Assembly: GCA_003509065.1 (NCBI GenBank)
Contig: DODG01000275.1
Span: 1-6,563, forward strand
Source: Acidobacteriota bacterium
GTDB lineage: Bacteria; Acidobacteriota; Vicinamibacteria; Vicinamibacterales; UBA823
Length of the DNA stretch: 6,563 nucleotides
Reading direction: 5' to 3'
Below the pieces are notes generated by a model that searched no databases, was not told the origin of the DNA, and saw nothing but the letters and a program-made list of their open reading frames with translations. Both the position numbers and the translations under genes were made by a program. Shown piece after piece: positions 2,518 through 6,563 of this stretch (position 1 is its first letter; each line of letters opens with the position of its first letter).

Positions 2518-4458
2518 CTAAAGCCCTTTGGACATCAGATCGGCAATCGCCCGGTTGAACCTTGCTGGATCGGGGAGTTCGGAACCCTCGGCCAGTAAAG
2601 CGTAGCCGAGAAGCAGATAAGCGTAATCGACAAGCGCCGGGTCTTCCTGGTTCCCAGCAAAACGTGCCTGCAACTTGGTCGTGATCTCATGATCGGGATT
2701 TAATTCAAGAATCCTTTTATTCTTAGCCTGACCATCAACGCCCTTTGCACGGCGAAGTAACCGTTCCAATTGTGGACTCATGTCTCCTTCACCTCCGACC
2801 AAACAAGCCGGTGAAGTCGTGAGGCGCGTTGACAACCGCGCTTCTTTGATCCAGTCGCCCAAATTCTTCTGAAGAAATTCCAGTAAGTTCTCGAAGGTCT
2901 TCTTACGATCGGCAAGGTCCTCCTCAGCCTGTTTACGCTCTTCGTCACTGCCAAGTTCAACTGTCCCTTGTCCAACGGACTTTAGCGTTTTGCCCTCAAC
3001 TTCGTGAACCGATCCAGTAACCATTTCGTCAATCGGGTCTACCAGGTACAGCACTTCATATCCCTTGGCCTGGAACGCCTCAAGGTGTGGGGAGTTCTCA
3101 ATGACCGCGCGCGATTCGCCTGTGAGAAAATAGATGTCGTCCTGGCTAGTCTTCATCCGCGCAACATAGTCAGTAAGACTGGTGAGTGCACTCGGGTCAT
3201 GTGACGATTGAAATCGCAACAACGGTACAACACGGTCTTTGACATCCGTTTCTGCGGCAACGCCTTCCTTAAGCACCTGTCCGAACTCGTTCCAAAATTT
3301 TAGATATTTTTCGTCGTCTTTCTTCTGTACCTGACCGAGGTGATCCAATACCTTCCGACTAAGCCAATTCTGCATTTGCTTGATGTGACGGTCTTGCTGA
3401 ATCATTTCGCGCGAAACATTTAACGGCAGGTCTGCTGAATCAACTACCCCCTTGAGAAAGCGAAGGTATGACGGTAACAAGTGCTGACATTGCTCCATGA
3501 TGAGTACACGTCGCACGTATAGCTGTAGACCAAACTGCTGATCGCGATAGTACAAATCCAAAGGCGCTTGTGCCGGCAGGTACAGCAGCGCTTGATACTC
3601 AATCCGACCCTCCGCCTTGAGCAAAAGTCGATCCAGTGGTTCCTGCCAATCGTGGGCAATATGACGATAGAACTCGGCATATTCCTCACTTGAAACTTCG
3701 TCGGATGGACGAGTCCAAATCGGCTTCATCGAATTGAGAATCTTCTCTTCAGTAACCGCGTGCGTCGTTTCTTTCGTCGACTCATCAACAGGTTCCTGAC
3801 GAGTTTCTTCTGCTTTGATGGGGTAGCTGACAAAGTTTGAATACCGCATTACTAGTGAACGCAGCACACCGAACTCCGTAAAGTCATCCAAGCCGTTCTC
3901 CACGTCAACTGCCTTAAGATGAAGCGTAATCGTGGTGCCACGAGTGAAGCGAGTGTCCTCTGCGAGTTCGTACGTCCCGTCGCCCGTGGAAGTCCAGCGG
4001 GTAGCAATCGAAGCTCCTGCACGACGTGTTACGAGCGTTACTTTGTCAGCCACCATAAACACAGAGTAGAAACCGACGCCGAACTGGCCAATTAGGTCAG
4101 CAACCGCCTCGCCCGACTTACGATCCTTGAGTGTGTCCATAAGTTCCCGGGTTCCCGACTTGGCAATAGTGCCAATGTGAGACACCACCTCATCCCGGCT
4201 CATGCCGATGCCATTGTCCAACACCGTCAGGGTGCGGGCATTAACGTCAGTTTCTAGTCGAATTTCAAGAGTTTCAGCTGGATCCAAAATCTTTGGATCG
4301 GTAAGTGATTCGAACCGAACGCGGTCAAGAGCATCTGAAGCATTCGAGATAAGTTCCCGTAAAAAGATCTCCTTGTGGGAGTACAGCGAGTTGATCACTA
4401 TGTCGAGCAACTGCTTCGTTTCGGCTTGAAATTGATGTGTTTCCACTTCCGCGTTCAT
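2518..4458 (-). CDS. htpG: Molecular chaperone HtpG (bacterial Hsp90)
   Basis: This 646-residue protein is a full-length bacterial Hsp90 (E. coli HtpG has about 624). It is a cytosolic, ATP-driven dimeric chaperone that remodels client proteins, usually together with DnaK. The GHKL ATPase domain spans about 1-215: E35 and N39 in RELISNASDAL, D81 in DNGIGM, IGTIAKSGT at 96-103, and the glycine-rich lid GQFGVGF at 124-130. The middle domain contains IWTRPSDEV (247-255) and the catalytic-loop arginine R350 in LPLNVSRE. The C-terminal dimerisation domain ends with PDPARFNRAIADLM. Only a short acidic linker (about 218-238) separates the first two domains, as is normal in bacteria. The start is fixed by TAGGAG (4470-4465) six bases upstream. 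All key residues are present and nothing appears broken. The gene is divergent from the small Cys-rich gene, and the WYL regulator follows after 60 bp. Confidence 0.98.
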   Translation of the reverse strand: MNAEVETHQFQAETKQLLDIVINSLYSHKEIFLRELISNASDALDRVRFESLTDPKILDPAETLEIRLETDVNARTLTVLDNGIGMSRDEVVSHIGTIAKSGTRELMDTLKDRKSGEAVADLIGQFGVGFYSVFMVADKVTLVTRRAGASIATRWTSTGDGTYELAEDTRFTRGTTITLHLKAVDVENGLDDFTEFGVLRSLVMRYSNFVSYPIKAEETRQEPVDESTKETTHAVTEEKILNSMKPIWTRPSDEVSSEEYAEFYRHIAHDWQEPLDRLLLKAEGRIEYQALLYLPAQAPLDLYYRDQQFGLQLYVRRVLIMEQCQHLLPSYLRFLKGVVDSADLPLNVSREMIQQDRHIKQMQNWLSRKVLDHLGQVQKKDDEKYLKFWNEFGQVLKEGVAAETDVKDRVVPLLRFQSSHDPSALTSLTDYVARMKTSQDDIYFLTGESRAVIENSPHLEAFQAKGYEVLYLVDPIDEMVTGSVHEVEGKTLKSVGQGTVELGSDEERKQAEEDLADRKKTFENLLEFLQKNLGDWIKEARLSTRLTTSPACLVGGEGDMSPQLERLLRRAKGVDGQAKNKRILELNPDHEITTKLQARFAGNQEDPALVDYAYLLLGYALLAEGSELPDPARFNRAIADLMSKGL

Positions 4459-4477
4459 CTCTCACTCCTAACTGCCT

Positions 4478-4493
4478 CTTGTCGAGACACAAG
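4478..4493 (-). repeat. Short inverted repeat CTTGT-N6-ACAAG in the htpG leader
   Basis: Five-base arms enclose a six-base loop. On the htpG transcript this could form a small hairpin just upstream of the TAGGAG ribosome binding site. If the TACAAT box at 4505-4500 is used, it would sit at the very 5' end of the mRNA. Arms this short can arise by chance. Operator or mRNA-stabilising roles are both possible. Confidence 0.3.
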
Positions 4494-4547
4494 CCCTTAA
4501 TTGTAGCGTGTCCGGACTCCAAGCGATCGGAGCATCTGACGCCGTAT

Positions 4548-4573
4548 ATAAAAATATCAAGAAACTTTTTTAT
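4548..4573. repeat. AT-rich inverted repeat ATAAAAA-N12-TTTTTAT
   Basis: Seven-base arms at 4548-4554 and 4567-4573 lie at the centre of the htpG divergent region, in an AT-rich tract. It could be a protein-binding dyad, a promoter UP-like element, or simply low-complexity sequence, in which such repeats arise easily. Confidence 0.3.
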
Positions 4574-4585
4574 TTTGTGCCGTGC

Positions 4586-4602
4586 GTGACCTTCCCTGTC
4601 AC
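4586..4602. repeat. Inverted repeat GTGAC-N7-GTCAC, possible operator
   Basis: Perfect five-base arms with a seven-base spacer (17 bp in all, a common operator size) lie 44 bases before the ATG of the Cys-rich gene. The position fits an operator over that gene's promoter. No binding protein can be named. No second copy was noticed in the other intergenic gaps. Confidence 0.35.
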
Positions 4603-4628
4603 TCCTCATTAGTACAGTTGTGTCCAAC

Positions 4629-4638
4629 AAGGAAGGAG
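4629..4638 (+). promoter_or_regulatory. Ribosome binding site AAGGAAGGAG that sets the start of the Cys-rich protein
   Basis: This strong purine-rich Shine-Dalgarno sequence ends eight bases before the ATG at 4647-4649. It therefore supports that ATG over the in-frame GTG at 4620, which lies upstream of the site. An out-of-frame ATG at 4640 is too close to it to be served well. Confidence 0.75.
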
Positions 4639-4646
4639 TATGTCGA

Positions 4647-5147
4647 ATGATTCAAAATTCTGAACAACAAGTCGTGACACCTCATGGTGTATCAAAGGCA
4701 GCCGTCGGATTAGTAAAGGCTCGTCAGGTAAATAGTTCACGAATCTGCACTCCAAAGTTGAGGATGAGTCACGAATTCACTTCGGTAGGCAAACAACTTG
4801 AGTTCGCTTACCGTGGTGTCGGTCCGTCAGACCGTTTACCGTCGACTCCGGTCAATCTTCAGCATGAAACCATGTGCTGTATTTGCCAAGACCGACAAGT
4901 AATGGTCGACCGGGTATCACGAAACAGGTCTTCGTTGTTTCACCTGCTGTGCTTCCCCTGTTATCACCATCAAATGGAACGCAAAAGAATGATTAAGCAA
5001 CGTCGGGCACTTGCGATGTTACAAAGACCGACTGATGCCCTGAGCAGGCACTCTGGAGAGACACACCCTCCCGAGGTGACGAAGTATCAACACTTGGCAC
5101 ATAGACGACATCAGGCACAGATATTGGTCCGGCGGGCGCTGATGTAG
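4647..5147 (+). CDS. Small basic Cys-rich (zinc-ribbon-like) protein of unknown function
   Basis: This is a 166-residue soluble protein with no signal peptide or membrane segment. I do not recognise the family. Its central feature is a pair of CxxC knuckles, C77/C80 in MCCICQ and C102/C105 in LLCFPCY, separated by 21 residues. This is a typical layout for a single structural zinc site. C78, H99, H107 and H108 are nearby. The second knuckle leads into a strongly basic, probably helical stretch (QMERKRMIKQRRALAML, about 109-125), and the C-terminus is again rich in Arg and His (AHRRHQ, VRRALM). Charge and zinc knuckles suggest contact with nucleic acid or another protein, but that is inference. 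It has a strong ribosome binding site and an uninterrupted frame, so it is very likely real. It is transcribed divergently from htpG. The first 70 residues are low in recognisable structure. Confidence 0.8.
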   Translation: MIQNSEQQVVTPHGVSKAAVGLVKARQVNSSRICTPKLRMSHEFTSVGKQLEFAYRGVGPSDRLPSTPVNLQHETMCCICQDRQVMVDRVSRNRSSLFHLLCFPCYHHQMERKRMIKQRRALAMLQRPTDALSRHSGETHPPEVTKYQHLAHRRHQAQILVRRALM

Positions 5148-5160
5148 CGTGCATCCATCA

Positions 5161-5186
5161 GGCAGGCGACTGAAGGATAACCTGCC
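5161..5186 (+). repeat. Inverted repeat GGCAGG-N14-CCTGCC after the Cys-rich gene
   Basis: Six-base GC-rich arms (5161-5166 and 5181-5186) start 14 bases after the Cys-rich gene's stop. The position suits a transcript end. However, the loop is long and no T tract follows, so it is not a convincing intrinsic terminator. Confidence 0.3.
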
Positions 5187-5201
5187 GTGCGACGGGCCTC
5201 A

Positions 5202-5230
5202 TCGCCAACCGCCAGAGACCCTGATATCCT
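5202..5230 (+). promoter_or_regulatory. Possible extended -10 promoter for the M42 gene pair
   Basis: TCGCCA (5202-5207, four of six matches to TTGACA) is followed after 17 bases by TATCCT (5225-5230). TG one base upstream of that hexamer (TGATATCCT) makes an extended -10. The predicted start near A5237 would leave a three-base leader before the ATG at 5240. The hexamer matches are modest, so confidence is limited. Confidence 0.35.
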
Positions 5231-5239
5231 CTGCTGAAC

Positions 5240-6160
5240 ATGAGCTATCAGTTATTGCGCTCCGCGCTCATCGCGACATTACTTTCGGCGCCGTATCCGC
5301 TGGCCGCCCAAACGGCGGCAACTTTGTCTGAACAATTCATCGAGATGACTGCTGTGACCGGGTACGAGCAAACGGCAGCCGAACAACTTCTGGCAATGCT
5401 CCCGGGCACGACATTAGATCGAGCAGGTAATGTCGTTGGGGTGCTCGGTACCGGCACACCCGTTAGATTGCTAGTTTGTCCACTCGATGAAGTCGGTTAT
5501 GTCGTAGGACGTATCACGGACGACGGTTATCTTCGCCTACGACGCGTTGGAGTAGGCAAACCGAATCTATTCGACCAAGGCTTGGAAGGACATCGAGTGA
5601 CTGTTTGGGGTGCCGCTAAAACAACACCGGGTGTCGTTTCGATTCCGTCCACCCATCTAGGACGTGGCCGCTCCTCGATGCCAGACAGACCCTTTGACGT
5701 AGACGACGCTTATGTCGACATCGGTGTGGACTCCGCAAAGGAGGTGCAGCAGCTTGGCATTCGACTTCTGGATGCGGTAGCCCTGGCTAAACGTCCCCAT
5801 CGGTATGGTAAAAATTTACTGGCGGGTCCAGAAGCTGGTCGTCGCGCTGGGTGCGCAGCTTTGGCGCGAACCTATCTTGATCAACCGGACGTCGACGGTA
5901 CCGTTGTGATTGCGTTCGTGGTTGAAAGCCAACTTCGTCATGCGGGATTGCGGGTCGTGTCCCGCCAACTGGGTCCCTTCGCCTCGACCTGGTTTATCAA
6001 CTATGACCCACCCGAGCGAATTATTGATGAGGGATTCGGTGCCATCAAGCACTCGGATGTACCTGTTCAATTTAGTGAGACCGCTGTTGAGACCATCAAT
6101 CTGGAAGAAGTGGAAACACTCACTACTCAGATCAGTACAGGAATCAAGAAACACCCATGA
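5240..6160 (+). CDS. Exported M42 aminopeptidase-like protein, apparent catalytically dead paralogue
   Basis: This 306-residue protein has a signal peptide at about 1-24 (LLRSALIATLLSAPYPLAAQ). The M42 (FrvX/glutamyl aminopeptidase) framework is clear. It has FIEMTAVTGYEQ and DRAGNVVGV near the N-terminus, LDEVGYVVGRITDDGYL at 82-98, the inserted-domain segment GHRVTVWG...GVVSIPSTHL, then YVDIG, GRRAGCAAL (200-208) and AVETINLEEVETL (282-294). Active M42 enzymes are cytosolic or exported dinuclear metallopeptidases. Here each expected functional residue seems replaced: P81 for the His of AHMDE, G200-R201 for the DD of DDR, E229-S230-Q231 for the QEE carrying the catalytic Glu, and E280 for the last His of the HSPVE-type motif. 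The frame is intact, which argues for a maintained pseudoenzyme rather than a decaying gene. A TGA at 5222 in frame fixes ATG 5240 as the first possible start, and it has no Shine-Dalgarno sequence. It overlaps the next gene by four bases. Confidence 0.85.
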   Translation: MSYQLLRSALIATLLSAPYPLAAQTAATLSEQFIEMTAVTGYEQTAAEQLLAMLPGTTLDRAGNVVGVLGTGTPVRLLVCPLDEVGYVVGRITDDGYLRLRRVGVGKPNLFDQGLEGHRVTVWGAAKTTPGVVSIPSTHLGRGRSSMPDRPFDVDDAYVDIGVDSAKEVQQLGIRLLDAVALAKRPHRYGKNLLAGPEAGRRAGCAALARTYLDQPDVDGTVVIAFVVESQLRHAGLRVVSRQLGPFASTWFINYDPPERIIDEGFGAIKHSDVPVQFSETAVETINLEEVETLTTQISTGIKKHP

Positions 6161-6563
6161 CTCTTAAATGTGGCGCAGTCATTCGTAGCCTAGTGAGCAT
6201 GGTCGTCCTATTTACGACAACATTGCCTGCCTCTGCGCAAGTTGATTCGAGTCGAGTTGAGGCAGTCGCAGGACTCCTTGAGGAATTGATTGAAACTTAT
6301 GGTGTGTCAGGAGATGAGCAGCGTGTGCGTGCTGTCGTAGAGCGACACCTACCCGCTTGGGCGAAGCCGCGAGTCGACGAATCCGGGAATCTGTGGGTAA
6401 GAGCTGGGCAGGGTGACCCGGTGGTCGTCTTTATTGCGCACATGGATGAAGTCGGGTTTCAAGTGACCGAGCTTCTCGACGATGGGTCGTTGCAAATCAG
6501 GCAGCGAGGTGGTTTTTATCCACATCTATGGGAGGCCACACCAGCATTTGTGCATACGGCTGA
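6157..6563 (+). CDS. Exported M42-family metallo-aminopeptidase, 3' end beyond window
   Basis: The visible 135 residues start at ATG 6157-6159, overlapping the TGA of the previous gene (ATGA). The frame stays open to the window end. A signal peptide is evident at 1-27 (hydrophobic VIRSLVSMVVLFTTTLPASA, with cleavage likely before QVDSS). The mature start LLEELIETYGVSGDEQ and DESGNLWVRAGQGDP match the M42 N-terminus. VFIAHMDEVGFQV contains the first metal-ligand His, H95, and the conserved D97-E98. It therefore probably hydrolyses peptides from the N-terminus using two metal ions, outside the cytoplasm. The DDR, catalytic QEE and last His lie beyond the window, so activity is not proven here. 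It aligns along its visible length with the upstream paralogue. The nearest Shine-Dalgarno-like AGGA (6139-6142) is 14 bases away, so translation is probably coupled to the upstream gene. Confidence 0.9.
   Translation, partial: MTLKCGAVIRSLVSMVVLFTTTLPASAQVDSSRVEAVAGLLEELIETYGVSGDEQRVRAVVERHLPAWAKPRVDESGNLWVRAGQGDPVVVFIAHMDEVGFQVTELLDDGSLQIRQRGGFYPHLWEATPAFVHTA

Follow-up and report, generated by a model that had tools for sequence, protein, structure and literature searches.

A tandem M42 pair in which a pseudopeptidase probably lends a catalytic histidine to its intact partner

The window considered here, the whole 6,563-nucleotide stretch of an Acidobacteriota contig, carries two M42-like genes on its plus strand, an upstream one that we call MU (5240–6160) and a downstream one, MD, that starts at 6157 and runs beyond the window end. 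MU is predicted to be an M42-fold pseudopeptidase and not an M42 peptidase: homology in sequence and fold is present, but only 0–2 of six active-site ligands are kept in 81 of 82 aligned MU rows. Metal ligands retained on MD and a loop histidine retained on MU amount to a complementary loss that is evident from the alignments. We consider it probable that the two proteins form an asymmetric MU:MD heterodimer, or a fused pseudodimer, sharing one reciprocal loop-swapped site to which MD contributes the metals and MU the histidine. The pattern suggests that MU survives by lending MD one catalytic residue; the dimer geometry, the action of the histidine in trans on MD and the export of both proteins are what we infer. 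The features concerned are as follows.

5240–6160, plus strand: MU, M42-fold pseudopeptidase gene, 306 aa (ORF, Pfam, model, fold match)
5240–5311, plus strand: signal-peptide-like N-terminus of MU, about residues 1–24 (by eye)
5477–5482, plus strand: C80 and P81 of MU; H68 metal-ligand position lost (alignment)
5654–5656, plus strand: H139 of MU, loop His in STHLGRGR, candidate residue for completing the active site of MD (alignment, literature)
5717–5719, plus strand: D160 of MU, at the PfTET3 Asp137 position, a dimer contact (numbering offset, excerpts of PMC4745047)
5837–5839, plus strand: G200 of MU; D182 bridging-ligand position lost (alignment)
5852–5854, plus strand: C205 of MU, which co-occurs with C80 (alignment)
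5927–5932, plus strand: S230 and Q231 of MU, where the catalytic Glu and a ligand Glu have been lost (alignment)
6002–6076, plus strand: shortened stretch of MU, 25 residues versus about 84–86; M42 oligomer contacts lie here (alignment, excerpts of PMC4745047)
6077–6079, plus strand: E280 of MU; H323 ligand position lost (alignment)
6157–6160, plus strand: ATGA overlap of MD start and MU stop (ORFs)
6157–6563, plus strand: MD, M42 peptidase gene truncated at the window end, with the AHMDEVGF ligand motif (ORF, Pfam; full-length relative L001 6420–7535)

Both genes score above the 23.2-bit cut-off of the Pfam M42 family (80.4 bits for MU, 37.6 for MD), overlap, and begin with signal-peptide-like N-termini as judged by eye, in agreement with the initial annotation of tandem, signal-peptide-bearing M42 homologues; the MU frame is likewise uninterrupted over its 306 codons. 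Only the first ligand motif of MD, AHMDEVGF, falls within the window, and it is retained there as had been claimed. The remaining motifs were read from the nearest relative, L001 (contig NZSH01000065.1 of a metagenome-assembled genome, MAG), whose MU shares 90% identity with the window MU in the best segment: SFDDRAG, STEXEXGL (with two ambiguous residues, near E212), AVDTFVS and RYSHSP. All six ligands are found in 72 of 73 complete MD rows and in 120/120 C-terminal halves of a more distant set, the best 120 of 412 L088-type fused proteins. Aminopeptidase activity of MD is assumed from its family.

MU presents a very different picture. The initial annotation had read, by eye, CPLDEVGY, GRR and ESQ in place of the expected motifs and had seen no histidine in the HSPVE-type motif; the columns of MAFFT alignments with MD and M42 proteins confirm each of these. 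The motifs are CPLDEVGY, AGRRAGC, VESQ and FSETAVE, with P81 at the H68 position, G200 at D182, S230/Q231 at E212/E213 and E280 at H323, and the six positions, which comprise the dinuclear ligands and the catalytic Glu, read P, G, S, Q, N and E in the window MU. None of the six is kept in 44 of the 82 MU rows, one in 34, two in 3 and four in 1, with 21 rows having no residue in at least one ligand column; the N-terminal halves of the best 120 of 412 L088-type proteins keep 0–2. Among rows with a residue at the position in one MU alignment, His is found at H68 in 0/73, Asp at D182 in 0/74 and His at H323 in 0/73. By these counts ligand loss in MU is in excess of chance, the rows tracing to one duplication and their counts not being independent events. 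A complete alternative set of ligands, named beforehand as counter-evidence, was found at the six positions in none of the 202 MU halves (82 + 120) scored by sequence alignment. The model of MU (pLDDT 90.7, pTM 0.86) matches the M42 fold. The fullest MU, with four of six ligands, is the N-terminal half of the fused pair L097, which still has H68, E212, D235 and H323 without D182 or E213 and is an intermediate stage of ligand loss. Among the 120 distant N-terminal halves, Glu persists at E212 in 53 and Asp at D235 in 32.

The framework of the vacated pocket is retained, with Asp at the D70 position in 79/82 MU rows and R202 in 77/82, as would suit a MU that binds a peptide substrate or product there and delivers it to MD or gates its passage. 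We regard this as very improbable: the former ligand positions vary widely (the H68 column holds A, P, G, S, T, N, D and, once, H), two cysteines beside the pocket could close it, and the idea does not predict the loop pattern described below. The free peptide-binding protein of the initial annotation was likewise set aside, as it leaves both the fusion of the genes and the complementary loss unexplained. The two cysteines, C80 and C205, flank the lost active site; both are present in 74/82 MU rows, neither in 6 and one in 2. Together they look like a disulfide replacing the metal site. They are invariant in set A3 (96/96 each), which would fit a new catalytic role of MU's own, built for example on C80/C205, but distant members often do without them (Cys in 42 and 45 of 120 halves at the respective columns) and we saw no further newly invariant set of catalytic residues, leaving this reading an even slimmer chance.

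What MU does keep without exception is a histidine outside the metal site, which had escaped the initial annotation and which offers a concrete role for MU. In the M18 aminopeptidase DNPEP, according to excerpts of PMC3472314, a loop of the dimerisation domain reaches across the dimer, and the His170 at its tip completes the active site of the other subunit; H170F abolishes activity, and the loop His is conserved in M42 enzymes, where the loops are disordered. For the M42 enzyme PhTET2, excerpts of PMC8993905 report reduced activity in H123 mutants and, from structures of relatives, a position of H123 possibly near the adjacent subunit's site, at distances from about 4 to >20 Å. Disorder of the loop in most structures leaves room for the M42/TET histidine to serve either its own site or its partner's; a trans role is proposed. 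The MU equivalent is H139 in STHLGRGR, and a histidine is found there in 82/82 MU rows, 120/120 N-terminal halves (the best 120 of 412 L088-type proteins) and sets A3 (96/96) and A2 (82/82), with some rows shared between sets, as well as in 19/19 ordinary M42 proteins. The H68 column varies and the loop position does not: the loop His is held by a constraint from which the former ligand positions have been released.

In MD the loop is shortened and mostly of a PR-type motif. Histidine was found in 3/79 MD rows, two rows being unreadable at this point, and in 8 of 120 C-terminal halves, the alignment of so short a loop being loose. The three rows are L001 (PRDEHX, adjoining an ambiguous residue), L088 and L090; together with the eight distant halves they weaken the case for a divided site. 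Loss of the loop His from MD is thus incomplete, and it is doubtful in the window lineage: the loop of the window MD lies beyond the window end, and the nearest relative, L001, is one of the three His-bearing MDs.

A second loss in MU, overlooked in the initial annotation, concerns assembly. Between D235 and H323 the window MU has 25 residues, about 60 being gone; the median interval is 84 in MD, 86 in ordinary M42 proteins, 10 in split MU, 41 in fused MU and 67–76 in more distant MU groups. In PfTET3, the oligomeric interface includes Pro257, Asn292, Gln295 and Arg298, and the dimer contact includes Asp137 with Arg311/Tyr312 (excerpts of PMC4745047). Transferred to MU by hand through a numbering offset, the four oligomer residues should fall within the lost stretch. 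The Asp137 column is Asp in 81/82 MU rows and 19/19 ordinary M42 proteins; the dimer-contact Arg column is Arg in 58/82 MU rows, and the window MU has Gln/Phe at the PfTET3 Arg/Tyr positions. From the lost stretch and the kept Asp, MU looks capable of dimerisation but unfit for the normal place in a 12-mer. Because the ~60 missing residues carry the TET oligomer contacts, a standard 12-mer containing MU is unlikely, and the mixed 12-subunit particle with a dead paralogue, proposed in the initial annotation, finds no support as stated; MU as a regular TET subunit is disfavoured on the same ground. In MD the Asp137 column is Trp in 40/79 rows and Asp in 23/79, a hint of an asymmetric dimer interface.

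A kept dimer contact, a lost oligomer side, overlapping genes and fusion could also describe a structural cap or a folding or secretion partner that binds MD by way of the dimerisation domain and either stabilises it or restricts how it assembles, contributing no catalytic residue. We think this unlikely, since it leaves unexplained a loop His that is invariant in MU and mostly lost in MD. A divided, loop-swapped site predicts metals without the loop His on one chain, the loop His without metals on the other, and tight coupling or fusion of the two. The ancestral M42 homodimer would have had two identical sites, each formed by the metal centre of one subunit and the loop His of the other. After gene duplication, the copies would have divided these functions: the metal centre stayed with MD, whose loop was given up, and the loop His stayed with MU, which lost its metal centre together with part of the surface of the catalytic domain. 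A copy that stops binding metal leaves its partner's loop without a site to act on, and would itself survive for the sake of its own loop. The working unit would be an exported aminopeptidase with one active site, assembled as a heterodimer by coupled translation or made as one fused chain.

The initial annotation had named a search for the pair in other genomes as a check, and relatives do have it. In the phylum of G002, a Gemmatimonadetes-titled MAG, MU (best E ≤ 1e-24) is found in 85 of 298 genomes, 29 with a split pair and 56 with a long frame. MD (E ≤ 1e-70) accompanies it in 85/85, a result that is built in for fused genes, so that the test proper is the 29 split cases. In 30 of 32 non-duplicate split loci, the window excluded, MU is followed by MD on its own strand; in the other two, L011 and L041, a contig end intervenes, and L012–L015, L025–L027, L030, L031, L034, L036 and L039 were dropped as duplicates before counting. 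MU-MD fusions of 669–874 aa occupy 40 of the 41 long-frame loci examined (L044, L046–L085) out of the 56; the remaining one, L064, counted as split in the alignment counts, is truncated by the end of its contig and probably represents an incomplete fusion. Co-inheritance and fusion of MU and MD are, on this evidence, apparent in the sequences. Flanking purN and/or purH were seen in 24/32 split and 12/41 long-frame loci, and this sharing of flanks makes the fused gene there the positional counterpart of the split pair. In one genome, G233, MD stands without MU, the locus being cut by a contig end. In G217, a 3' MD remnant without MU (L119:1618–2073), with RYSRSP and hence Arg at H323, lies between purN and purH, and MU and MD therefore seem to have been lost together.

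Beyond that phylum, the one to which G001 (the MAG that contains L001) belongs has matches at E ≤ 1e-20 in 12 of 119 genomes, one of them L092, a single protein with active-type ligands. Within the order of G001, 13 of 60 genomes match, and a split pair there (L124) shows the same motifs. Protein searches over candidate sets of limited size matched at least 1012 sequences with MU (E ≤ 1e-5), at least 1305 with the L056 fusion (E ≤ 1e-10) and at least 412 with the L088 fusion, of which the best 120 are listed in each case and the weaker may be ordinary M42 proteins. Names among the fusion matches listed include Gemmatimonadaceae, Hymenobacter, Fulvivirga, Acidobacteriota, Thermoanaerobaculia and one MAG labelled Janthinobacterium. 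A model of a fused 712-aa protein has a mean pLDDT of 86.6 and a pTM of 0.87, which suits, if only indirectly, a defined arrangement of the predicted halves; Foldseek with this model returns single M42 chains and cannot reveal a pseudodimer.

A tree of 81 chosen rows (34 MU, 34 MD, 12 ordinary M42 and 1 single, from ORFs picked by HMM match) places the MU rows in one clade (98/94) and the MD rows in another (100/97), both apart from the ordinary M42 proteins, and the two clades branch similarly inside by eye. The fused or split state changed at least twice on the MD rows and at least three times on the MU rows. The single protein, L092:1135–2541 (minus strand), with full ligands and a STHLRR-type loop, lies next to MD and resembles the state before the division of roles. 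The MD of L001, from a MAG titled Woeseiaceae, clusters (100/97) with that of L016, a locus of the G002 phylum, despite its other phylum group, reflecting either gene transfer or a mislabelled MAG. For Hsp90, the best non-self match is 63% among 80 genomes of the L001 group and 54% among 81 of the G002 group.

Selection on the upstream gene, for which the initial annotation had named dN/dS as a check, is not neutral. Among 64 overlapping, non-independent pairs (same-form only, MU dN < 0.25, both dS 0.1–1.0), the NG86 dN/dS has a median of 0.269 for MU (0.110–0.399) and 0.206 for MD (0.034–0.305), values that point to purifying selection on both. Altogether 1954 pairs were computed; fused-versus-split pairs with ratios >1 were taken as saturation or poor alignment and left out. 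MU exceeds MD in 56/64 pairs, as a decaying duplicate might, but its range of ratios, the single old clade, the invariant loop His, recurrent fusion and co-occurrence in all 85 MU genomes make decay barely credible. For the family, decay is ruled out by dN/dS, tree and loop His, and the frame of the window copy is intact. The initial annotation's view that the loss is adaptation rather than decay is upheld by gene overlap, co-occurrence, fusion and a dN/dS of ~0.27.

Several known systems come close to the pair. It shares with the M42 (TET) aminopeptidases of PF05343 (PhTET1/2/3, MjTET, TmPep1050) the fold, the dimerisation domain, the loop His in MU and the full ligands in MD; where an ordinary M42 chain has both metal site and loop His, the pair divides the two between chains or halves, and MU is missing a stretch with oligomer contacts. 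M18 DNPEP also completes its site with a His from the dimer partner's loop, but forms homodimers within a 12-mer, each subunit having its own metal site, and excerpts of PMC3472314 describe no division of labour. Complexes of two M42 paralogues are known in the PhTET2-PhTET3 hetero-12-mers (PMC4220976) and in B. subtilis YtoP-YsdC (PMC10090944), neither of which is described as a live/dead pair in the excerpts of those papers. In M16 two-half peptidases, active-site residues usually lie in one half and both halves are needed (excerpts of PMC12731061), whereas fold and clan differ, the active half of MU-MD is C-terminal, and the role proposed for its dead half is loop donation. Heteromers of M42 proteins and two-half M16 enzymes are already known, and the live/dead M42 pair with a putatively divided site appears to be new; among the open-access matches listed, by titles and abstract starts, we found no live/dead M42 pair or fusion.

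We put at roughly even the chances that the pair represents a distinct M42 architecture, an exported one-active-site dimer or single-chain pseudodimer outside the tetrahedral shell, with a reciprocal loop-swapped site split between the halves; the presence of L001 among the loop exceptions lowers this estimate. If true, M42 would have its own counterpart to the two-half enzymes of M16, exemplified by MPP and IDE, and such an open rather than compartmentalised enzyme might trim larger peptides. The M16 family itself is absent from the Pfam matches of MU or MD at E ≤ 1. With the metal site and the loop His residing for the most part on separate chains, mutation of a single chain can show whose site the loop His serves, and fused versions in Hymenobacter and Fulvivirga, among the matches listed, make laboratory tests look feasible. 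Donation of one catalytic residue would be a concrete reason for keeping a pseudoenzyme, and the finding bears on the large number of proteins listed in databases as 'putative aminopeptidase FrvX' in which the N-terminal half would be unable to bind metals.

A scan of 4450–6563 gave one promoter-like element (1.3 expected) and three terminator-like elements (1.8 expected), which were not used. The minus strand of the window encodes an M14 carboxypeptidase (1–1290), a WYL-type regulator (1363–2484) and an Hsp90 (2518–4458). The M14 zinc carboxypeptidase, cut by the window start, has a signal-peptide-like start and is a second peptide-degrading enzyme close by. Upstream of MU, a plus-strand ORF (4620–5147, 175 aa) with Cys/His-rich stretches and no Pfam match has a 166-aa counterpart in L001, likewise upstream of MU.
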